Source: an uncultured Bacteroidota bacterium (GTDB lineage: Bacteria; Bacteroidota; Bacteroidia; Chitinophagales; Saprospiraceae). Taken from it: a stretch of 36,913 nucleotides of DNA. Shown one piece after another: positions 755 through 34,813 of the stretch (its first letter is position 1; each line of letters begins with the position of its first letter). The stretch is from the NCBI GenBank assembly GCA_903933805.1, contig CAIZLM010000321.1, positions 1 to 36,913 of the forward strand, given 5' to 3'. A model generated the notes under the pieces. The model saw only the letters and a program-made list of their open reading frames with translations. It was not told the DNA's origin and did no database searches. The position numbers and the translations under genes were made by a program.

Positions 755-917
755 GTAATTGGTTAGTTGGCACGCTGAATGATCGAAAAAGGCCGATTTT
801 TCGTTGTGCTTCCGAGATTTTTTCTGACCGGAGCGCTGCTTTGCCCTACAAAAAATCGCTTGATCTAGCAACAATATGGCCAATTTAACCCTTCAAGGGG
901 ACCACCTCGGTCGGTGC
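755..917 (+). mobile_element. MITE copy 1 (diverged, full length, perfect 8-bp target duplication)
   Basis: The left end reads GTAATTGGTTAGTTGGCACG, close to the family end GTAACTGGTTAGGTGGCACG. Internal blocks of the family are recognisable, such as CTGACCGGAGCGCTGCT and CCCTACAAAAAATCGCTT. The right end is degraded. The 8-mer AAGATATA is repeated exactly at 747-754 and 918-925, and the interval between is 163 bp, the same length as the two best copies at 17345 and 28010. The element has no ORF of its own. It is the oldest-looking copy in the window. Confidence 0.8.
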
Positions 918-1025: not shown

Positions 1026-4000
1026 ATGCGACCACCCATCTTCGCGATTTTCACAGCGCTTATTTTCTCTTTTTGTACCAAACAACCCACAAAACAGCCT
1101 CTTTTTGAAGAAGTTTCTGCTGAAAAATCAGGCGTAAGCTTCGTCAACAAGGTAGAGAACACCGAAGAATTCAACATCTTCAGTTACCGAAATTTTTACA
1201 ACGGCGGTGGAGCAGCCATTGGCGATCTCAACAACGATGGGTTGCCGGAGGTATTTTTTACGTCTAATATGGGTGACAACAAACTGTACCTCAACAAAGG
1301 GGATTTTGTGTTCGAAGATATTACCACTACAGCTGGGGTCGCAGGCTCCAAGTTTTGGAGCACCGGCGTAGCCTTGGTGGATATCAATGCGGATGGATTG
1401 CTCGATATTTATGTTTGTAATGCTGGTTATAAAAAAGATGAAAAGCCCGAAAACGAGCTTTTTATCAACAATGGAGACCTCACCTTTACAGAAAGTGCTG
1501 CGGCATACGGACTCAATGAAGACGGCTACACCACCCACGCGGCGTTTTTTGACTATGACCTAGACGGAGACTTGGACTGCTATATATTGAACAATAGTTT
1601 TATGCCGGTGAATACCCTGGATTACAGCAACAACCGGGAACTTTACGCCAAAGATTGGCCTGTAAAAGACTTTTTAAAGGGTGGCGGCGATAAATTACTC
1701 CGAAATGACGGCGGAAAATTCACCGACGTTTCCAAAATATCCGGCATTTATGGCAGTCTTATTGGGTTCGGCTTGGGTGTCACGGTAGGTGATGTAAATG
1801 GTGACCATTGGCCAGACCTCTACATCTCCAACGATTTTTATGAACGCGATTACCTGTACATCAACCAAGGTGATGGCACCTTTAAAGAGGAAGTTGAAAA
1901 ATGGATGGAGCACCTCAGCCAAGCTTCTATGGGCGCTGACATGGCCGATATCAACAACGACGGTTTCCCGGAAATTTTTACCACGGAGATGCTGCCCAGC
2001 GACGACCAACGTCTGAAATCCATGATTCTCTTTGAAAATTATAATATTTACCAACTCAAACTGGACCGGGGCTTTTACCACCAATACATGCAGAATAGCC
2101 TTCAACTCAACAACAAAGACAATACTTTTAGCGAAATTGCTTATTACGCCGGGGTAGCTGCCAGCGATTGGAGTTGGGGCGCCCTGTTGTTCGATGCCGA
2201 CAACGACGGATTCCGAGATATTTACATTTGCAATGGGATCTACAAAGACGTCATAGACCAGGATTTTATCGATTTTTTTGCCGACGAAGTGGTTCAAAAA
2301 ATGGCACTTACGGGTAAAAAAGAGCAAATAAACGAGGTTATTTCAAAAATGCCCTCCACTCCCCTGCTCAACAAAGCCTTCAGAAATACAGGCGCCCTAA
2401 CATTTGAAGACAAAGGAATGGATTGGGGATTCCATACGCCCTCTTATTCCAATGGTGCGGCATACGGCGACCTCGACAACGATGGCGACCTCGACTTGGT
2501 GGTCAACAATGTCAACCAGCCAGCTTTTATGTACCGCAACAACGCTGATAAAATACTACAAAACCACTTTCTGAGTATTAAACTTCAGGGTAAAGGGCAG
2601 AATTCCTTTGCCATTGGCGCTAAGGTAACGGCGTATCGCGGAAGCGAGCAACTGAATACGCAATTGATTCCAACCCGAGGTTTTCAGTCGTCGGTGGACT
2701 ACAAAATCGTGTTTGGCCTAGGCCAGGGTTCAACCGTTGATTCGCTGGTGGTAGAATGGCCTGACAACACCAAAACGGTGCAAGTGAGCCCAAAAATTGA
2801 CGGTACCATCCTACTTTCCTGGGAAAAAGCCAACCCTCCCACTGCCCAAATCAATCAGGGTCAACGTAAAGACGCACAAACAATATTTCAAGAAAGCCCC
2901 TCACCCTTCCCGGCATTACCGGAAGATGACTTTATAGATTTTTACCCCGAAGGCCTGAGCTTTCGGATGATTTCCAGAGAAGGACCGAAGTCGGCCGCAG
3001 GAGATGTGAACGGTGATGGGCTGGAAGATGTTTTTATAGGCGCACCGGCAGGGCAGGCGGGATGCTTGTATTTTCAAACAAAAAACGGTGGTTTTGTCAA
3101 AAGCAAACAGGCTATTTTTGAGATAGATTCTGTTTTTGAAGACACCGCAGTGCTGTTGTTCGATGCCGATGGCGACAAAGACCTGGATCTTTTTGTCGGT
3201 TCCGGTGGCAACAAAAATGAAGTTGGTACCAGGCTCCTTCAGGACAGACTGTACACCAACGATGGCAAAGGCAACTTTAAAGCCAACCCCTATGCCCTTT
3301 CCATGAACGGCTACAACACAGCCGTTGCCGTTCCCCTCGACTTCGACGGTGATGGTGATTGGGATCTTTTTGTGGGTAGCCGCTCCGTGCCTGGGAATTA
3401 CGGGGTGCCGCCCCGTCAATTTCTGTATGAAAATGATGGAACTGGCAATTTCAAGGATGTCGCCAAAACAAATGCCGAAGATCTCAAGCTCGTTGGCATG
3501 GTGACCGATGCCACCCTTGCCGATGTTACGAGCGATCCCGGGGAAGAGCTGGTCATTGTCGGAGAGTGGATGGCACCACAAGTATTTAAAAACGACCGTG
3601 GACAACTCAAAAAAGTCGCTTCCAACCTCGATCAATACGCCGGTTGGTGGTATTCCGTAGATGCGGCAGACCTCGATGGCGATGGCGACAATGATTTGGT
3701 GCTTGGCAACAGGGGTGAAAACTTTTATTTCACCGGCACACAAGAAGCCCCTGCTAAAATCTGGATTTGGGACTTTGACAGCAATGGTACCGTGGATAAA
3801 ATCATGACACGGCAGATAAACGGCCGCGATATGCCGATTCCAATGAAAAAAGACTTGACAGGTCAGTTGCCAATGCTCAAAAAAGCCAACCTGAAACACG
3901 CTGACTATGCAAAAAAAGCGATTCAGGACCTGTTTCCTGAAAAATTACTGCGGCAAGCGATGATGCGGCAAGCCAATTATTTCAAATCCGCTGTGGCGAT

Positions 4001-4373
4001 CAACAATGGCAATGGGCAGTTTACACTCCAGGAACTCCCCAAAGAAGTGCAATTTTCATGTGTCTGTGCGATATGGTGCAGCGATTTGAACCAAGATGGC
4101 AAAACAGACTTGGTACTCGCCGGCAATGACGCAGGGTTTACGCCGCAATTCTCCAAACTGGATGCATCTTTTGGCCACACGCTCATCAACCGGGGAAATG
4201 GTCAATTTGATCGCTTGGAAAATCGACTGTCCGGCTTTACCGTACACGGCGATACCAAGGGCCTGACCCCCATTCAAATACACGACAAGGAATACTTGCT
4301 GGCCACCTTAAATGGAAAAGCACCCAAACTTTTTTCATACCAACAATCCGCTGCTGTTTCTACCAGCAAATAA
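1026..4373 (+). CDS. FG-GAP (VCBS) repeat lipoprotein with ASPIC/UnbV domain
   Basis: This 1115-residue protein begins with a short hydrophobic leader ending IFSFC (Cys17), a loose lipobox, so it is probably an exported lipoprotein. It carries many FG-GAP/VCBS beta-propeller repeats with Ca2+-binding DxNxDGxxD-type loops, for example GDLNNDGLPEVFF near residue 67, VDINADGLLDIYV and GDVNGDGLEDVFIG near 660. An ASPIC/UnbV domain occupies about residues 512-590 (NSFAIGAKV ... GLGQGSTVDSLVVEWPD), and a second propeller follows it. The architecture is that of the CRTAC1-like VCBS proteins common in Bacteroidetes, often linked to surface glycan handling. The next gene is a clear paralogue 25 bases downstream, so the two form an operon. 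The substrate or partner cannot be deduced, and no SusC/SusD pair is present here. Confidence 0.93.
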   Translation: MRPPIFAIFTALIFSFCTKQPTKQPLFEEVSAEKSGVSFVNKVENTEEFNIFSYRNFYNGGGAAIGDLNNDGLPEVFFTSNMGDNKLYLNKGDFVFEDITTTAGVAGSKFWSTGVALVDINADGLLDIYVCNAGYKKDEKPENELFINNGDLTFTESAAAYGLNEDGYTTHAAFFDYDLDGDLDCYILNNSFMPVNTLDYSNNRELYAKDWPVKDFLKGGGDKLLRNDGGKFTDVSKISGIYGSLIGFGLGVTVGDVNGDHWPDLYISNDFYERDYLYINQGDGTFKEEVEKWMEHLSQASMGADMADINNDGFPEIFTTEMLPSDDQRLKSMILFENYNIYQLKLDRGFYHQYMQNSLQLNNKDNTFSEIAYYAGVAASDWSWGALLFDADNDGFRDIYICNGIYKDVIDQDFIDFFADEVVQKMALTGKKEQINEVISKMPSTPLLNKAFRNTGALTFEDKGMDWGFHTPSYSNGAAYGDLDNDGDLDLVVNNVNQPAFMYRNNADKILQNHFLSIKLQGKGQNSFAIGAKVTAYRGSEQLNTQLIPTRGFQSSVDYKIVFGLGQGSTVDSLVVEWPDNTKTVQVSPKIDGTILLSWEKANPPTAQINQGQRKDAQTIFQESPSPFPALPEDDFIDFYPEGLSFRMISREGPKSAAGDVNGDGLEDVFIGAPAGQAGCLYFQTKNGGFVKSKQAIFEIDSVFEDTAVLLFDADGDKDLDLFVGSGGNKNEVGTRLLQDRLYTNDGKGNFKANPYALSMNGYNTAVAVPLDFDGDGDWDLFVGSRSVPGNYGVPPRQFLYENDGTGNFKDVAKTNAEDLKLVGMVTDATLADVTSDPGEELVIVGEWMAPQVFKNDRGQLKKVASNLDQYAGWWYSVDAADLDGDGDNDLVLGNRGENFYFTGTQEAPAKIWIWDFDSNGTVDKIMTRQINGRDMPIPMKKDLTGQLPMLKKANLKHADYAKKAIQDLFPEKLLRQAMMRQANYFKSAVAINNGNGQFTLQELPKEVQFSCVCAIWCSDLNQDGKTDLVLAGNDAGFTPQFSKLDASFGHTLINRGNGQFDRLENRLSGFTVHGDTKGLTPIQIHDKEYLLATLNGKAPKLFSYQQSAAVSTSK

Positions 4374-4398
4374 CAAATACCTCGCGCATAATAACACC

Positions 4399-7300
4399 AT
4401 GGCAAAAAACGCTGTTACGTTGACTTTACTCCTACTCGTATTGGTTGGTTGTAAGCAAGAAACGCCCATAAAGGCATCCTTTGAATTGTTGCGAAAAGCA
4501 GACACTGGCTTAGACTTTCAAAATATACTACAATCATCCATCGACTTTAATCCACTCAACTACATGTATTTCTTCAACGGCGGAGGGGTGGCTGCCGGCG
4601 ATTTCAACAACGACGGTTTAGCAGATATTTTCTTTACCAGCAACATGGGCAAAAGTAAAATGTTTCTAAATCGAGGCAACTTGCACTTTCAAGACATCAC
4701 CGATCAAGCTGGTGTTGCAGGCACCTCAACGCCCATCGAAGGTGGTAGTGTAACGCCCAAATGGACAACCGGCGCCTCCGTGGTTGACATCAACAACGAC
4801 GGATTGCTGGACTTGTACGTAAGTCAGGTTGGCAACTACCTGACCATCAAAGGTCAAAACCATTTCTACATCTGTCAGGGTATTCAGGACGGTGTACCTG
4901 TATATGAAGACCAAGCCATTCAGTACGGATTGGATCTCGTGGGCTTTGGCACCCAAGCAGCCTTCTTGGATTACGACCTCGATGGCGACCTCGATATGTA
5001 TCAATTAAACCATTCTGTGCACGCGAATGGCACATTTGGCCAAAAAAAGAGCTTTGAAGGAACACAGCATCCCTTGGCCGGTGACAAGCTTATGCGCAAT
5101 GAAGGCGGAAAATTTACCGAGGTAACCCTGGCTGCAGGCATAAAAAGCAGTGTTATCGGTTACGGCCTCGGTATTGCGGTAGGCGATATAAACCTGGATG
5201 GATGGCCAGATATCTACATCGGAAACGACTTTCATGAGAACGACTACCTCTACCTCAACCAGCAAAATGGCACGTTCAAAGAATGCCTGAATGACCATAT
5301 CCAGCATACCAGTCAGTTTTCTATGGGCGTTGATATCGCGGATGTCAACAACGATGGCTGGAGCGAAATAATCTCGCTGGATATGCTTCCGGAAGATCCT
5401 TATATCTTGAAAAGTTCACTCGGGGAAGACGACTATGGATTGTATCATTTCAAGTTGGAATATGGCTACAGCAGCCAATATTCCAGAAATACGCTTCAAA
5501 AAAATAACGGCGATCCGACAGAACCCGGGCAGATGCCCTCCTTCAGCGAAATTGGTATGTTCTCAGGCGTATATGCGACTGACTGGTCGTGGGCCTCGCT
5601 GTTTTTGGACTTCGACAACGATGGCAACAAAGACCTGTTCATCAGCAATGGCATAGAGCGGCGTATGAACGACATCGACTATGCCAATTTCAGAATGGGC
5701 GATGAAGACTTGCGGTTCAAGCAGGGCGCCAACAACCTGGAGAAAAAAGACCTTTCTGTCGTTGATAAAATGCCCCAAATCAAGCTCCCCAATAAATTCT
5801 TTCGAAACAACGGGGCCTTCAAATTTCAAGACTTGGAAATGGCGATCAAAGGCGCCTTACCCACTTTTTCAAATGGCGCCGTTTATGCAGACTTCGACAA
5901 CGACGGCGACCTTGACGTGGTGGTAAACAACCTGGCCGATGAGCCATTTCTGTACAAGAACCTTGCATCTGATCAGGCCCTACAGGGTAACAGTTACTTG
6001 TCCTTACAACTCAAAGGGGCGCCCACCAACCTGAATGCCATTGGCGCGCGCGCGATTGTTTTCAAAAAAAATGGGGAAAAGCTGGTGTTTGAGCAAAATC
6101 CGGTGCGGGGATTTCAATCCAGCGCGCTCACACGCCTTCACCTGGGACTTGGAGATCCATCTACCCTTGATTCCATTTTGTTGGTTTGGCCAGACAGAAC
6201 CTACCAACAGGTACCCTCAAATTCCCTCGATAAAACATTGGACATAGTGTGGAAAACGGGCCTTCCCGTCTTTAATTTCGAGCAATTCACCAAAAAACCG
6301 ACACTGCCGTTTGATTTTACCGAAGTGTCTGATAAGAAAAAACTGTTGTATTACCATGTAGAAAACCCCTTTGTTGAATTCAACCGCGAGGGTCTCATTC
6401 CGCACATGGTATCAGCCGAAGGCCCGGCATTGGCGGTGGGTGATGTGAATGGTGATGGCTTGGAAGACGTCTTTTTTGGTTCCAGCAAACGTGGCCACAG
6501 CGCCCTGTATTTCCAAAAGAAAGATGGCACCTTTTTTGAAAACACACCAATATCCATACGTCAAGACAGTATTTTCGAGGATGTTGACGCTGTTTTGGTT
6601 GACTTAGATGCGGACGGAGACTTGGATCTCTTGGTGGCAGCCGGTGGCAACGAATACCGAAATCAAGATGAGGCCATGCAGCAGCGGGCATATATCAACG
6701 ATGGAAAAGGTGGAATGGCACGCAAAAATTTTGAAGGCGTTTTCATGACTGCCTCCTGTGTATTACCCACAGATTTTAACAAAGACGGTCTGGTTGACTT
6801 ATTTTTTGGGGCACGTGCCAAGCCTTGGAACTATGGGGTAACACCCACTTCTACCCTGTTGTTGAACAAGGGGAACGGCCAATTTGAAGATGTCACCGAT
6901 CAAATCGGGGGTGGGATCCGAGAAGCCGGGCTGGTCAAAAACGGCGCATGGGCAGATATGGATGGCGATGGCGACTCAGACCTCCTGCTGGCCCTTGAAT
7001 GGGAACCACCCACCATCTACTTCAATGAAAACGGCCAATTCAAGAAATTTGTACTGAACAACATGAAAGGCTGGTGGAATTTCATGATGCCCTACGACTT
7101 TGACGGCGATGGAGACTTGGATATTTTGGCCGGAAATCTCGGGGAAAACAACAAATTCCACCCAACGCCCGAGCAGCCTGTACGACTCTATGTGTCTGAT
7201 TTTGATGACAACCAACAGATAGAACAAATATTGACCTATTACATCAAAGGTCGAGAGGTTCCTTTTGCCAACTATGATGAAATCACCAAGCAACTTCCCT

Positions 7301-7779
7301 ACCTGAAGAAAAAATACCTGCTCGCGAAAAAATTTGCCCAAGCCACCTTGCCCGAACTGTTTGGCGCAGACAAACTGGCTAAATCAATCCATCGGGAAGC
7401 CAATACATTCCAAAGTATGTATTTCACCAACAGCGGGGATGGTCGAGTATTTACTGCACAACCATTGCCCGATGCCCTTCAATACAGCACCCTGAACGCT
7501 ACGGCGCTTGAGGATGTGGACGGAGATGGAAAATCAGACGTAATCCTAGGCGGCAATTTTTATGAAAGCAACATTGAGATGGGGCGTTACGATGCCTCCT
7601 ACGGCAATGTGCTGAAATTTAGCGACCAAGGAAACATGTCGGTATTTCCACTAGGGAACTTGCGGGTGAAAGGACAAATTAGGCGGATTGAGCCCTTAAA
7701 AACAGTGGGCGGAAAAGTGTTCGTACTGGCAAGAAACAATGAAAAAGCACTGATTATTCAAGCTACACCTACGCAATAA
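4399..7779 (+). CDS. FG-GAP (VCBS) repeat lipoprotein with ASPIC/UnbV domain, paralogue of the preceding gene
   Basis: The start at 4399 was chosen over an in-frame ATG at 4312 because it yields a canonical lipoprotein signal (MAKNAVTLTLLLLVLVGC, Cys18) and avoids overlap with the upstream gene; the protein is then 1126 residues. The order of domains repeats that of its neighbour: FG-GAP repeats (GDFNNDGLADIFFTSNMG near residue 70, VDINNDGLLDLYV), an ASPIC/UnbV domain at about residues 530-605 (NAIGARAIVF ... LGLGDPSTLDSILLVWPD), then a second propeller (GDVNGDGLEDVFFG). It lies 25 bases after the first gene and before a strong terminator, so both are probably on one mRNA. The pair most likely arose by tandem duplication. 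The proteins have diverged strongly outside the calcium loops. Outer-membrane or surface location is inferred. Confidence 0.93.
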   Translation: MAKNAVTLTLLLLVLVGCKQETPIKASFELLRKADTGLDFQNILQSSIDFNPLNYMYFFNGGGVAAGDFNNDGLADIFFTSNMGKSKMFLNRGNLHFQDITDQAGVAGTSTPIEGGSVTPKWTTGASVVDINNDGLLDLYVSQVGNYLTIKGQNHFYICQGIQDGVPVYEDQAIQYGLDLVGFGTQAAFLDYDLDGDLDMYQLNHSVHANGTFGQKKSFEGTQHPLAGDKLMRNEGGKFTEVTLAAGIKSSVIGYGLGIAVGDINLDGWPDIYIGNDFHENDYLYLNQQNGTFKECLNDHIQHTSQFSMGVDIADVNNDGWSEIISLDMLPEDPYILKSSLGEDDYGLYHFKLEYGYSSQYSRNTLQKNNGDPTEPGQMPSFSEIGMFSGVYATDWSWASLFLDFDNDGNKDLFISNGIERRMNDIDYANFRMGDEDLRFKQGANNLEKKDLSVVDKMPQIKLPNKFFRNNGAFKFQDLEMAIKGALPTFSNGAVYADFDNDGDLDVVVNNLADEPFLYKNLASDQALQGNSYLSLQLKGAPTNLNAIGARAIVFKKNGEKLVFEQNPVRGFQSSALTRLHLGLGDPSTLDSILLVWPDRTYQQVPSNSLDKTLDIVWKTGLPVFNFEQFTKKPTLPFDFTEVSDKKKLLYYHVENPFVEFNREGLIPHMVSAEGPALAVGDVNGDGLEDVFFGSSKRGHSALYFQKKDGTFFENTPISIRQDSIFEDVDAVLVDLDADGDLDLLVAAGGNEYRNQDEAMQQRAYINDGKGGMARKNFEGVFMTASCVLPTDFNKDGLVDLFFGARAKPWNYGVTPTSTLLLNKGNGQFEDVTDQIGGGIREAGLVKNGAWADMDGDGDSDLLLALEWEPPTIYFNENGQFKKFVLNNMKGWWNFMMPYDFDGDGDLDILAGNLGENNKFHPTPEQPVRLYVSDFDDNQQIEQILTYYIKGREVPFANYDEITKQLPYLKKKYLLAKKFAQATLPELFGADKLAKSIHREANTFQSMYFTNSGDGRVFTAQPLPDALQYSTLNATALEDVDGDGKSDVILGGNFYESNIEMGRYDASYGNVLKFSDQGNMSVFPLGNLRVKGQIRRIEPLKTVGGKVFVLARNNEKALIIQATPTQ

Positions 7780-8804: not shown

Positions 8805-8966
8805 GTAACTGGTTAGCGTGGTCGCGTCTAAGACAAAAAAGTGGCCATTTTTTGCCAGACGAAGCAGATTTTTGCAGGCCTTAGCAGCGTTACGGTCAAA
8901 AAAACTGCGAAGTATGGCAGAAAATGGGCCTTTTTGGGCCAGACAGCGTGCCACCTAACCAGTTAC
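8805..8966 (-). mobile_element. MITE copy 2 (full length, perfect 8-bp target duplication)
   Basis: This 162-bp copy is in the opposite orientation to copies 3 and 6: its right end, read on the minus strand, begins GTAACTGGTTAGGTGGCACG. The flanks carry an exact 8-bp direct repeat, AATTTTAG, at 8797-8804 and 8967-8974. Reverse-complemented, it aligns over its whole length with the copies at 17345 and 28010, one base shorter. The two halves form an imperfect palindrome. A 66-codon frame across it on the minus strand is an artefact of the repeat. Confidence 0.93.
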
Positions 8967-17344: not shown

Positions 17345-17507
17345 GTAACTGGTTAGGTAGCACGCTTTCTGGCCCAAAAAGGCTCATTTTCCGCCATATT
17401 TCGCAGATTTTTTTGACCCTAGCGCTGCTACGGCCTACAAAAATCCGCTTCGTCTGGCAAAAAATAGCCACTTTTTTGTCTCAGACGCGACCACGCTTAC
17501 CAGTTGC
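17345..17507 (+). mobile_element. MITE copy 3 (full length)
   Basis: A 163-bp copy running from GTAACTGGTTAGGTAGCACG to ACCAGTTGC. By hand alignment it differs from the copy at 28010 at about 13 positions, and the right-hand half is nearly identical. Flanks are GACTAAAA and GATAAAAA, 6 of 8 identical, consistent with a decayed 8-bp duplication. It sits between the terminator of the oxoamine synthase gene and nhaD. A 66-codon frame through it is a repeat artefact. Confidence 0.9.
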
Positions 17508-22023: not shown

Positions 22024-22058
22024 GTAACTGGTCAGCGTGCCACCTAACCAGTTCTTAC
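22024..22058 (-). mobile_element. MITE copy 4 (internally deleted remnant, about 35 bp)
   Basis: The sequence GTAACTGGT joins directly to CAGCGTGCCACCTAACCAG and ends GTTCTTAC, so both ends remain but the 120-130 bp centre is lost. The flanks ATTAGCGC (22016-22023) and ATTAACGC (22059-22066) agree at 7 of 8 positions, as expected for a decayed target duplication. The right flank overlaps the stop codon of the upstream DUF4199 gene. The remnant can still form an AACTGGT/ACCAGTT hairpin just after that stop and may act as a terminator. Confidence 0.75.
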
Positions 22059-22759: not shown

Positions 22760-22837
22760 GTGACTGGTTAAGTGGCACGCTGTCTGGCCCAAAAAGGACC
22801 ATTTTTTGTCTCAAACGCGACCACGCGAGCCCGTTAC
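22760..22837 (+). mobile_element. MITE copy 5 (internally deleted, 78 bp)
   Basis: The left 42 bases follow the family (GTGACTGGTTAAGTGGCACG ... CCCAAAAAGGACCATTTT), then jump to the right-hand part (TTGTCTCAAACGCGACCACG ... CCGTTAC). About 85 bp of centre are missing, with the join in the T-run shared by both arms. Flanks AAACTTGA and AAATTTTA agree at 6 of 8 positions. The copy ends 11 bases before the tauE start codon, so it must be transcribed as leader or contain promoter elements. The family peptide pattern seen upstream of tauE is produced by this repeat. Confidence 0.85.
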
Positions 22838-27999: not shown

Positions 28000-28009
28000 A
28001 TTATTGCGA

Positions 28010-28172
28010 GTAACTGGTTGGGTGGCACGCTGTCTGGCCCAAAAAGGCCCATTTTCCGCCATACTTCGCCCATTTTTTTGACCGTAGCGTTGCTACTGCC
28101 TACAAAAATCCGCTTCGTCTGGCAAAAAATAGCCACTTTTTTGTCTCAGACGCGACCAGGCTAACCAGTTAC
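28010..28172 (+). mobile_element. MITE copy 6 (full length, perfect 8-bp target duplication; reference copy)
   Basis: This 163-bp copy runs from GTAACTGGTTGGGTGGCACG to GCTAACCAGTTAC. Perfect 8-bp direct repeats TATTGCGA flank it at 28002-28009 and 28173-28180. The terminal 10 bases are perfect inverted repeats, and the two arms continue as an imperfect palindrome up to a central GTAGC-GTT-GCTAC hairpin. It contains no gene. It lies in the 326-base gap between the BtuF-like gene and the subtilase gene; apart from it and the -7 box at 27992-27999 nothing else is recognised in the gap. Confidence 0.95.
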
Positions 28173-28210
28173 TATTGCGAAATACTATTGGGATATGTTA
28201 TCAATTTTGC

Positions 28211-29035: not shown

Positions 29036-29070
29036 GGAACTGGTTAGTTGGCACGCTGTCTGGCGCAAAA
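29036..29070 (+). mobile_element. MITE copy 7 (truncated left end, about 35 bp)
   Basis: GGAACTGGTTAGTTGGCACG followed by CTGTCTGGCGCAAAA matches the left end of the family; the similarity stops at 29070 and no right end is found. It lies 25 bases upstream of the BtuF-like start codon and supplies spurious in-frame upstream codons. No target duplication can be assigned. Confidence 0.7.
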
Positions 29071-29080
29071 CGGATTCCAT

Positions 29081-33100: not shown

Positions 33101-34813
33101 CCTGCCAGAACCAGAACACAGAACAGTATCCCGGGTATAAATCTCAACATCTTCTGGTGCAATGAACGCTGTAACCACGCTTTTTTCCGCTAGTCCGCAG
33201 GAATTACTGGTGGAGGCCGTGATGATATAAGGACCAAATGCCGCGTCCAGTTTAACTGGAAAACTGTCCTGAACAGCACCATTCACTTGATACACGAGGC
33301 TGGAGTCGAATGGCGCAGGGGTAAACAATGTTTCTAAACAAGCGAGCGCCGGGGTGTCAAGGGCTATTTCAATGGGTAATTCTACCTCAATGTGGATGGT
33401 GTCCGCTCGCCGACAAACACCCAATCCACTGTAGGTAAATACTTCAAACATTCCGGGGGTATTGGGTACAAAGAATATACCCGAGGAGTCGTTGAAAAAA
33501 ATGCCGGAGGGCCCCGCCCAATTCCCCGCCGGATAGGCAAATATATTGATGGTATCAGAACCGATACAAGCCGTCACATCGCCATTCGGATAAGCTATAG
33601 CAATGTTAGGGGCTGTGCGAAGCGAGAAAGTATCGTAGGCGTGTACTTCCCCACAAAAATTCTTCATAACCGCCTCGAGAAAATACGTATCGTTTGAAAG
33701 TGGCAGAAAAAGTGGGAAAGTATCCTGCTCAATACCGTTAATGGTGTAAACTACGCTCGTATCAAGCTGAATCGGTGTATAGGTAATCGACGTACAAGTA
33801 TCCCCCTGCGCCTCTAAACGGATGGCAGGCGTCCTGATAACATGGACAATCACCTCCGCCTTGTCGTTGGCGATACAATTATTGCTGACCTCCAGGTAGA
33901 TCCTGTAAGTACCTGGCTGGGAGAACTGCATGGCCACAATATTGGTATCCGGTGTTTCAGGATCGGGGTACCATTGCCAGCCGCCCGTTGGCCCCTCCAC
34001 TTTCCAGGAGAAACTGGCACTGGAGAAGGAGTTTGCTCCTGTCAACTGGAGGTATTCCAGCGAATCGTCCATGCAGATATTGTACTCGTTGCCAGTTACG
34101 TTGATCGCATTGTTGGTGGCGGGTACCAGTTCTGCATTGGGCGGGTTGGAAACAGTAAAGGTTCCGGATGAACACACCGTATCGCAAACGTTCCCCACGC
34201 AATAAGTTACATTGTAGGTTCCACCACTGCTGAATACATATCCAAGGGTATTTCCTGAGTAATACTGGCTATTCCCCAGATCCCACACCTCATAATTCAC
34301 GCCTGCTTCAGGACAGTTGGTCAGTCCGCCTCCACTCCCACCCGCTAAGGATCCCTGAAAGGTGACGCCTTCGTTGGCGCACGGGTTTGACGAAACCACA
34401 AAACTGGCAACAGGCGGATTCCTAAACGTCAGAATGAACGCACTGTTCGTGGGGTCAGCCAGCGTATCGTTCAGGTAGGTTTGCATGACAATGGTGAACG
34501 ACTTCTGATATTTACAGGTGCCAAAAAAGTCAGACAGGTTGTACACATGCGTTTGCGAGGGTGGGTTCTGGCTGCCTGGAACCACCGTATTGGGGGAATT
34601 GTCGCCCCAATCTATATCAAAATGATCTATACTGTCCCTGTTTGGGTCATTGGGATCCACAATGATGTTTACGCAAATCTCTTCCAGTGGCCCGGTGATG
34701 CAGTAAAACTGCACCCCATCGCAGGTGGCGATGGTGGGGTTGTTGTAGGTCTGACCTAAAAGTTGGGCTGAAGCAGACATCAGACCGAAGAGTAATATGA
34801 CCGTCTTTTTCAT
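30188..34813 (-). CDS. Giant PKD-repeat protein with T9SS type B sorting domain
   Basis: This 1541-residue protein begins with a signal peptide (MKKTVILLFGLMSASAQLLG). Its body is made of PKD/Ig-like domains; typical cores are FDIDWGDNSPNTVVPG near residue 64, VHLVDWGDGTSGLGLLEHTY, YTWDLGNGQKYDGYNPPPV and CTWYFGDGTSSVGRVVMHDY. Residues 1435-1541 form the type B sorting domain (FIPNAFTPNNDGVNDVFYAR, YFRIFDKYNETVF, GWEGVFRGEKAEAGAYRF). The start codon overlaps the stop of the preceding gene as TAATG, so translation is coupled. PorP/SprF follows after 4 bases. It is expected to cross the outer membrane by T9SS with its PorP/SprF partner and be displayed on the surface, perhaps in adhesion or gliding. 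The ligand is unknown. Confidence 0.95.
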   Translation of the reverse strand: MKKTVILLFGLMSASAQLLGQTYNNPTIATCDGVQFYCITGPLEEICVNIIVDPNDPNRDSIDHFDIDWGDNSPNTVVPGSQNPPSQTHVYNLSDFFGTCKYQKSFTIVMQTYLNDTLADPTNSAFILTFRNPPVASFVVSSNPCANEGVTFQGSLAGGSGGGLTNCPEAGVNYEVWDLGNSQYYSGNTLGYVFSSGGTYNVTYCVGNVCDTVCSSGTFTVSNPPNAELVPATNNAINVTGNEYNICMDDSLEYLQLTGANSFSSASFSWKVEGPTGGWQWYPDPETPDTNIVAMQFSQPGTYRIYLEVSNNCIANDKAEVIVHVIRTPAIRLEAQGDTCTSITYTPIQLDTSVVYTINGIEQDTFPLFLPLSNDTYFLEAVMKNFCGEVHAYDTFSLRTAPNIAIAYPNGDVTACIGSDTINIFAYPAGNWAGPSGIFFNDSSGIFFVPNTPGMFEVFTYSGLGVCRRADTIHIEVELPIEIALDTPALACLETLFTPAPFDSSLVYQVNGAVQDSFPVKLDAAFGPYIITASTSNSCGLAEKSVVTAFIAPEDVEIYTRDTVLCSGSGRIYLAASDTLLGFWEGDHIFKNSNGYYFDPVDPGSYLLVFVRGFDLCRRTDSIRVNVTPGNAVEAGEDLVVCSTQLAVQLANASPGGIFSGFAVTGDIVNVSQLALDTTYLYTYINPGLPEACNLDTRTVTVYGPPAAGFSLDRDTACRGEMVSVVPEAMSGVVHLVDWGDGTSGLGLLEHTYSEPGSYPVQYTAFTVNPLTAEPLCTVTGVAQVEIPAEQLTGVIRFSVFPDSGCAPLTVYFNNLSPNDGRQYTWDLGNGQKYDGYNPPPVTYYDGTTDTSYQVRVSMVNGCGVAEFTHTIRVAPRPRADFDVVFEQPCSGNVAELILGSTGNPLQQTYYVSNGHQYSGSVDQPTSFQLFTGDVPDTVAIWLVSTNLCGSDTAMRQVIVNPPDVTALVGLPDTTRLCEGLLAQVISFATPGSDIVWEVSNGENYSGDTISVHFNDPGQYVITLYAYGCGYDSVTLPVTVYPIPDIALLHDLQKCPGEPINFWVNSVAPGVQLWFGDGDSSAQRNIAHVYPGPGTYTPFARVTTQRGCENTASGSLVIHELPTAQAMATDSVCTFAKAQFQGISNNPDDSCTWYFGDGTSSVGRVVMHDYPAQGNFMPIFKVISPEGCLASDTTTVIVRTIPDAVFSFSLPQACAPATASFLSQATGATAVRWKLSDGYSSDDFLFERTFNQAGAYAATFYTSNDGICPDTAQVAFEVFPVPELHVAMALHCTASAGTDLVATTGPPDQLFVSGPGYNAPGGVHNGLAPGSYTVRAESKEGCFLDTLVFALPVNELLLHVEQDYFALILGEYASLSARVNKSDVDFVWEPSNWLSDPTIADPVSRPIQPVIYTVTATDNNGCTKTDTVQIDLSIDYDAALFIPNAFTPNNDGVNDVFYARSNMPDALRIDYFRIFDKYNETVFDLAELEGHENATPEDIFFGWEGVFRGEKAEAGAYRFTISVVFPDGVNRNFAGTVQLIR

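Follow-up and report, generated by a model that had tools for sequence, protein, structure and literature searches.

The window analysed here is a whole stretch of 36,913 nt from an uncultured Saprospiraceae bacterium. At positions 28002-28180 it shows the layout TATTGCGA-GTAACTGG...CCAGTTAC-TATTGCGA: a complete 163-bp element (28010-28172, plus strand) with the ends GTAACTGG and CCAGTTAC lies between two copies of the 8-bp target duplication TATTGCGA, one on the left (28002-28009) and one on the right (28173-28180). A sequence-only reading of the window had described a 163-bp quasi-palindromic unit bordered by this duplication; the unit is real, and TATTGCGA is indeed present on both sides. 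The terminal repeats occupy 28010-28021 (GTAACTGGTTGG in this copy, the consensus form being GTAACTGGTTAG) and 28161-28172 (CTAACCAGTTAC), both on the plus strand. A conserved hairpin core corresponds to element positions 30-134 (28039-28143, plus strand; the models described below span about 28050-28132). A single strand of the element is predicted to fold into one end-to-end hairpin (RNA, -54.2 kcal/mol, z -4.2; DNA, z -4.2). The element was classified as an IS66-type MITE; it contains no transposase gene and has a high copy number.

The window includes further full copies at 17345-17507 (plus strand, flanks GACTAAAA/GATAAAAA) and 8805-8966 (minus strand, 162 bp, AATTTTAG on each side). A diverged copy spans 755-917 (plus strand; the profile match covers 755-905), a 78-bp short form with both ends but no centre lies at 22760-22837 (plus strand), and a left-end fragment at 29038-29079 (plus strand). 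Six of the seven places listed in the sequence-only reading were thus recovered (755, 8805, 17345, 22760, 28010 and 29038), while that at 22024-22058 was not. The 8-bp duplications are exact at full copies 8805 and 28010, and the flanks of 17345 carry two mismatches. An earlier hand count of about 13 differences in 163 positions between the copies at 17345 and 28010 fits the 92% identity measured over 167 bp. The view that copies always lie between genes is roughly right, although the longest reading frames are overlapped in their 5' portion by the copies at 28010, 22760 and 29038, in each case ahead of the Pfam domains encoded there. Five relatives were searched for an empty site matching the 17345 copy. 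One gene flanking this copy was found in 5/5 of them; the other flanking gene was on another contig in four and was not found in one, so that the two genes are not neighbours there. Elsewhere in the window (1026-7779), units of the GAC.TCGACAACGA type are repeated within two very long reading frames, a feature that we take to be typical of FG-GAP/VCBS repeat proteins.

The genome to which the window belongs (G000; 4.2 Mb in 336 contigs) was searched with the terminal 19-base pattern GTAACTGGTTAGNNNGNNC, allowing one mismatch at most. This gave 455 + 434 matches, against 0 + 2 for a reversed control, so that the genome contains hundreds of copies. Since an intact element has two ends, the genome should contain at least about 445 elements. 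A profile search of 200,333 bp from this genome counted 42 elements or fragments, in agreement with the earlier estimate of about one copy per 5 kb; the sample is not random, as it comprises the window, three contigs chosen for IS66 and contig C100, where a copy was already known, and the 28-copy profile behind the count included one copy (L017) on the wrong strand. Among 27 G000 copies (L017 left out), variation is even along the element.

Fifty-one stretches with both ends were found in the examined sequence of G000. Thirty-three were 158-167 bp long (28 of exactly 163 bp), and ten formed a short class of 77-80 bp in which both ends are kept and the centre is missing; some of the 51 with odd lengths, such as a 191-bp stretch at window position 33909, are probably chance pairs. 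Duplications were counted in the 33 stretches of 158-167 bp and in 11 of 70-89 bp. Exact 8-bp duplications flank 18 of the 33 full copies, and 25 if one mismatch is allowed (0.2% and 0.6%, respectively, in a mispaired-flank control), with zero exact duplications at 7 or 9 bp in the same 33. The 8-bp duplications anticipated at other copies were thus found. The short form shows exact duplications in 3/11 cases and duplications with at most one mismatch in 5/11. Since it lacks the core and still carries 8-bp duplications, from which movement is deduced, the core appears to be dispensable for movement, and the idea that the core is required for it was rejected.

In 14 of the 51 both-ended stretches, grouped in ten arrays, another element end lies at exactly 8 bp; other spacings between 0 and 20 bp occurred 0 or 1 times. 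Typing of the neighbour's inner end succeeded in seven arrays, where that end always had the same orientation, and failed in three. The ten arrays were at loci L005, L006, L007, L009, L011, L014, L017, L026, L027 and L143. The elements of an array may be unlike in length or in divergence (85% versus 95% identity to the query in contig C37, for example), which points to re-insertion beside an old end rather than to duplication of a pair. The 8-bp spacing suggests that the transposase may prefer to insert beside an existing element end.

The sister genome G036, with 83% identity at the porP gene, contained one full copy and one fragment. In view of these few copies, the burst of the element was probably recent in the window's lineage. 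The first 28 bases of the consensus had one exact match outside G000 in the species-genome collection, in an uncultured Flavobacteriales MAG, on a contig of 5 kb; this may reflect a transfer or a binning error. The element pattern had no match in viral contigs, blastn gave none in plasmid and phage records, and carriage by phages or plasmids was rejected for this reason.

IS66-family elements begin with 5'-GTAA and duplicate 8 bp of target. Elements coding for an IS66 transposase and having ends identical to the 12-bp consensus ends, GTAACTGGTTAG, were found at L081 (genome G009), with TTTTCAGA on each side, and at L082 (G036), with no exact 8-bp duplication. Their scores against NF033517 were above the model cut-off for L081 and below it for L082. 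L081 is interrupted and the transposase of L082 is internally deleted, so that no intact partner with GTAACTGGTTAG ends was seen. Inside L081 (594-3723) lie two copies, of about 769 bp each, of another insertion element (691-1459 and 2827-3595) in the same orientation. Inside its own ends the MITE showed, by eye, no further likeness to L081 or L082. A PF03050 (IS66) search of G000 found three loci: one with other ends, GTAAGCCTCCCAC, and an 8-bp duplication, CACCGGGA; one with GTAACTATCCAG ends; and a fragment adjoining a remnant of the GTAAGCC type. The search for IS66 elements with matching ends was thus successful in relatives of the genus, while 0/3 IS66 loci in the own assembly had GTAACTGGTTAG ends. 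With the assembly in 336 contigs, the partner may be missing from it; its absence touches present movement, not the make-up of the element.

IS66 was present in eight of 26 genomes of the genus, G000 included, and other repeats could be paired with it. The repeat end GTAAA[AT]ACTTAG of G003 pairs with the G007 IS66 end GTAAAAACTTAG, with exact 8-bp duplications at several G007 copies, and the repeat end GTAACTATCCAG of G012 pairs with an IS66 of G000 (L051). At L090 (171-2843, contig C1 of G007) two IS66 elements of the GTAAAAACTTAG type (171-1370 and 1379-2843) lie 8 bp apart, like the MITE arrays. Copy number, 8-bp duplications and the identical 12-bp ends of genus IS66 elements support the interpretation as an IS66 MITE made in the sequence-only reading. 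That interpretation covers only part of the picture: the core is shared by a far larger family in which other ends occur.

When the element was used as a query, matches were found in five of 30 genomes (G000 and 29 relatives), and several of them covered the middle only, with other ends around it. A first covariance model, built for 82 positions of the middle from 19 sequences (of G000, G014, G003, G012 and G008), had matches in 29/42 genus genomes, own included. A second model, based on 29 cores taken from 27 genomes, had matches in at least 24 of the 247 class genomes sampled and in 14 of 136 genera, own included, with up to 18 candidates scored per genome. The inner ~105 bp is one member of a set of related, covarying hairpin cores that occur with ends of several dissimilar kinds. 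In the alignment of 29 cores, 18 of the 24 pairs were changed on both sides, a figure as high in none of 500 shuffles, and 91.5% of the cells paired, compared to a mean of 71.9% in the 500 shuffles and to 51.2% at most when the alignment was slid by 1-3 columns. Some unpaired loop columns are nearly fixed (C in 76/76 representatives, T in 95%); the conservation partly reflects how the cores were selected, as they were found by the models.

The homology of cores with unlike ends was assessed with a sequence-only profile of 15 IS66-class cores. It was applied to 65 cores bearing other ends, a single core being taken for each combination of genome and end label, and every core was compared with 100 shuffles that preserved its base pairs. 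Fifty-nine of these cores outscored all 100 of their own shuffles, and 43 exceeded the best of all 6,500. By end class, success was 41/43 for GAG/GAA, 6/6 for GACTTGTTGC, 6/6 for AGTACC, 5/5 for AGGAACG and 1/1 for ACACTGTA. The four cores whose ends are labelled G, H, I or J all failed, and these labels were dropped as core relatives. The two GAG/GAA-type failures were the cores of G031 and G043, the latter being tied in only via its position in the core tree (see below), beside the cores of G033 and G045 (85/96). Two side observations were made on the collected loci. L127 (G007) and L121 (G039), from genomes treated as different species, have identical cores and identical flanks in opposite orientation, which is either recent transfer or shared contamination; and a hairpin copy at L048 (135-335, G003) contains an insert of CTTCGGCAGGCTCAGCATG-type repeats in one arm.

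The kinds of ends differ in their partner transposons and duplications. GTAA ends go with an IS66 match and an 8-bp duplication, and GAGC ends with an IS5-family match and a 3-bp duplication. Exact duplications of 3 bp, TTA or TAA in most cases, were found at 42 of 55 GAG/GAA-type elements; mispairing gives 33%. TA flanks were found in seven of nine elements of the GACTTG type and in 7/7 of the AGTACC type, being too constant for a duplication test. IS5-family (NF033580) elements with like ends were present in G043, G009 and G039 and, more weakly and below the model cut-off, in G007. In G043, the IS5 element L269 (AGAACGTGTTCGGGAATTT) and the hairpins L187-L190 (AGAGCGTGTTCGGGATTTT) have 17 of 19 terminal bases in common, as do the hairpins of G033 and the IS5 of G039 (L237), both compared by eye; the best IS5 end match, that of G043, sits on a core that did not pass the core test. 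By their 3-bp duplication and IS5-like ends, which the window element does not bear, the sister hairpins of the GAGC type can be described as IS5-type MITEs. IS elements with TAGACTT ends carry DDE_Tnp_4, and GACTTG ends match those of their IS over only about 12 of 14 bases (by eye). No partner transposons were found for AGTACC, AGGAACG and ACACTGTA ends. Total length varied little: in a survey of lengths and flanks restricted to 150-180 bp (121 loci examined, 71 assigned), hairpins were 160-164 bp long in 53/55 cases of class B (GAG/GAA), 160 bp in 8/9 of class C and 157-158 bp in 7/7 of class D, to be compared with 163 bp in 28/33 full copies of G000. One genome, G003, has five end classes around its cores.

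The clearest exchange of ends involves G014 and G003. Their repeats end in GTAACTGGTTAG and GTAAA[AT]ACTTAG, respectively, each equal or nearly equal to the end of a genus IS66; they have 96 of 110 core columns in common, and eight of 12 bases at each end (ends versus rest, p 0.038). This is one clear case in which the core was kept and both ends were switched to those of another IS66 subfamily. In a core tree of 125 rows and 84 columns, in which 43 of 118 inner branches were left open, G014 and G003 cluster together (100/99), while G000, with G014's ends, lies apart beside G036 (99/89). Nine of 134 cores were left out of this tree (seven without end label and two of over 90 bases). All IS66-class cores fall in one cluster (81/81), and the tree mostly groups by end class, so that clustering by genome instead of by ends was rejected. 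The ten end labels require 13 changes on the tree, the least possible being 9 and shuffled labels giving 54.6; ends therefore seem to be mostly inherited with the core, and exchanges to be few. The arms next to the ends were also compared with the core. Identities were 11/28 versus 73/111 between G000 and G014 (p 0.016) and 11/28 versus 77/111 between G000 and G003 (p 0.004); the arms diverge more than the core in both comparisons, which are not mutually independent. The pair of G000 and G036, with 26/28 versus 94/111, shows no such faster divergence of the arms.

In a normal element, unlike sequences adjoin the left and the right end. Among 53 end pairs of G000, 41 were left-right, one was left-left (L024), two were right-right (L004 and L006) and nine could not be typed. 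A further left-left element, in which the right end duplicates the left, was found in another genome, at L303 (306-488), on a contig binned as a Flavobacteriales MAG. The traces of arm copying thus amount to four cases; hybrid ends in L017 and L143, initially taken as such signs, were withdrawn, a single inserted base explaining both. Mismatches of the stem were balanced between G.T and A.C (24 versus 33, and 42 versus 34), which agrees with complementarity being maintained in the DNA rather than by RNA pairing on a single strand.

We propose, with a probability of roughly 0.78, that the 163-bp IS66-moved MITE is a branch of a class-wide core family with exchangeable ends, in which partners change and arms are copied. 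An IS66-family transposase would move the element in trans via its 12-bp ends, leaving 8-bp duplications; the anatomy is seen directly and the movement is deduced from it. Throughout the class, the conserved ~105-bp hairpin core would be carried between the terminal repeats of different transposons, namely IS66 elements of three or more end sequences, IS5-like elements and, for ends where no partner was found, further transposons. Lineages would change partner by gaining new ends while keeping the core and a total length of ~160 bp, as the pattern of ends and lengths indicates. One arm may acquire a new end, which template switching inside the palindrome would then transfer to the opposite arm. 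Such copying would account, too, for the DNA-level complementarity that the arms retain. Why the core persists and how its ends are exchanged are matters of inference. That this is a long-lived parasite lineage of transposons, with one core across Bacteroidia, a transposase changed repeatedly (also between the unrelated IS66 and IS5) and both ends replaced in concert by arm-to-arm copying, is held more tentatively, at slightly less than even odds.

The element might be an ordinary IS66 MITE and nothing more, its likeness to hairpins with other ends being a convergence of AT-rich palindromes caught by the covariance model. Hairpin models favour any palindrome, model-found cores are alike by selection, and 6/65 cores, including all four of labels G, H, I and J and that of G043, failed the shuffle control. 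However, such convergence would hardly let a sequence-only profile of IS66-class cores beat pair-preserving shuffles in 59 of 65 cases, 43 of them above the best of 6,500. The unpaired loop positions are kept too, and 223 of the 247 class genomes, with up to 18 candidates scored in each, gave no match; we regard this explanation as improbable. It is equally doubtful that the core is a mobile hairpin inserting into the centre of other MITEs. The five end classes around the cores of G003 and the existence of core-less short forms would be expected of it, but total length is near-constant, and G014 and G003 differ mainly in their terminal bases.

Alternatively, the core could act as a functional RNA or as a transcription terminator and be conserved because it affects the genes nearby, with the ends of secondary importance. 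It is a covarying hairpin with a conserved asymmetric loop, the window copies lie between genes or before domains, and the left end is overlapped by one promoter-like match on the minus strand (28028-28000). However, shuffled sequences contain more such sites than the region does, and no terminator-like site was found inside the copies at 17345 and 28010, on which ground a terminator was rejected. Rfam searches found only a tRNA in the window. In 11 loci, all that they found lay outside the elements: a tRNA, and plant microRNA models scoring below threshold. A known RNA family was therefore rejected as well. G.T mismatches were not favoured over A.C, contrary to RNA pairing, which led us to reject selection at the RNA level, and within-genome variation is even along the copies. 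A role as RNA or terminator is accordingly considered unlikely. Intrinsic bending by phased A/T tracts was also rejected : in a calculation with an approximate wedge table the cores scored barely higher than shuffles (mean z 0.55 and 0.76), and the window element lay below its own.

The proposed family, with its conserved core and exchangeable ends, can be set against several known systems. The window element resembles IS66 insertion sequences (NF033517) and the MITEs derived from them in its GTAA ends, its 8-bp duplications and its 12-bp ends identical to those of two genus IS66 elements. Unlike IS66 elements, it contains no transposase gene, and its core is common to elements with other ends. 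As for the IS5 family (NF033580) and its MITEs, sister hairpins of the GAGC type share IS5-like ends and 3-bp duplications with them, whereas the window element has IS66 ends. REP/REPIN sequences, associated with RAYT, are dispersed intergenic palindromes of high copy number. The window element differs from them in its 8-bp duplications, and a search for the Y1 (RAYT) transposase PF01797 gave 0 matches in G000, with control matches in 5/14 genomes; a REP/RAYT origin was rejected on this basis. The Correia/NEMIS elements of Neisseria are likewise short palindromic repeats with two size classes that differ by an internal segment (107/155 bp, and 78/163 bp here), but in the parts of the source consulted that segment carries an IHF site and no change of partner is described (PMC2229807). 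MITECca01 of Cardinium is, like the window element, an abundant IS-derived MITE in a bacterium; in the sections consulted it is described as unique to that strain, and, unlike here, its parent IS982 is present in the same genome (PMC9769881). A search of the open-licence PMC literature yielded no description of the present family, no paper on IS66 MITEs in Bacteroidetes and none on bacterial MITEs that combine a common middle with unlike ends. Set against that literature only, the family provisionally appears to be new.

MITEs are commonly regarded as deletion derivatives that depend on a single parent transposon. In the present family it is the middle that the elements have in common, and they differ in their ends, which determine the enzyme that moves them. 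A testable target preference is suggested by the insertions at exactly 8 bp from existing copies, and natural pairs with a like core and different ends are material for tests of transposase specificity. The core family is in addition a marker family across the class. If the proposed reading is true, host switching by non-autonomous transposons would be traceable in bacteria.
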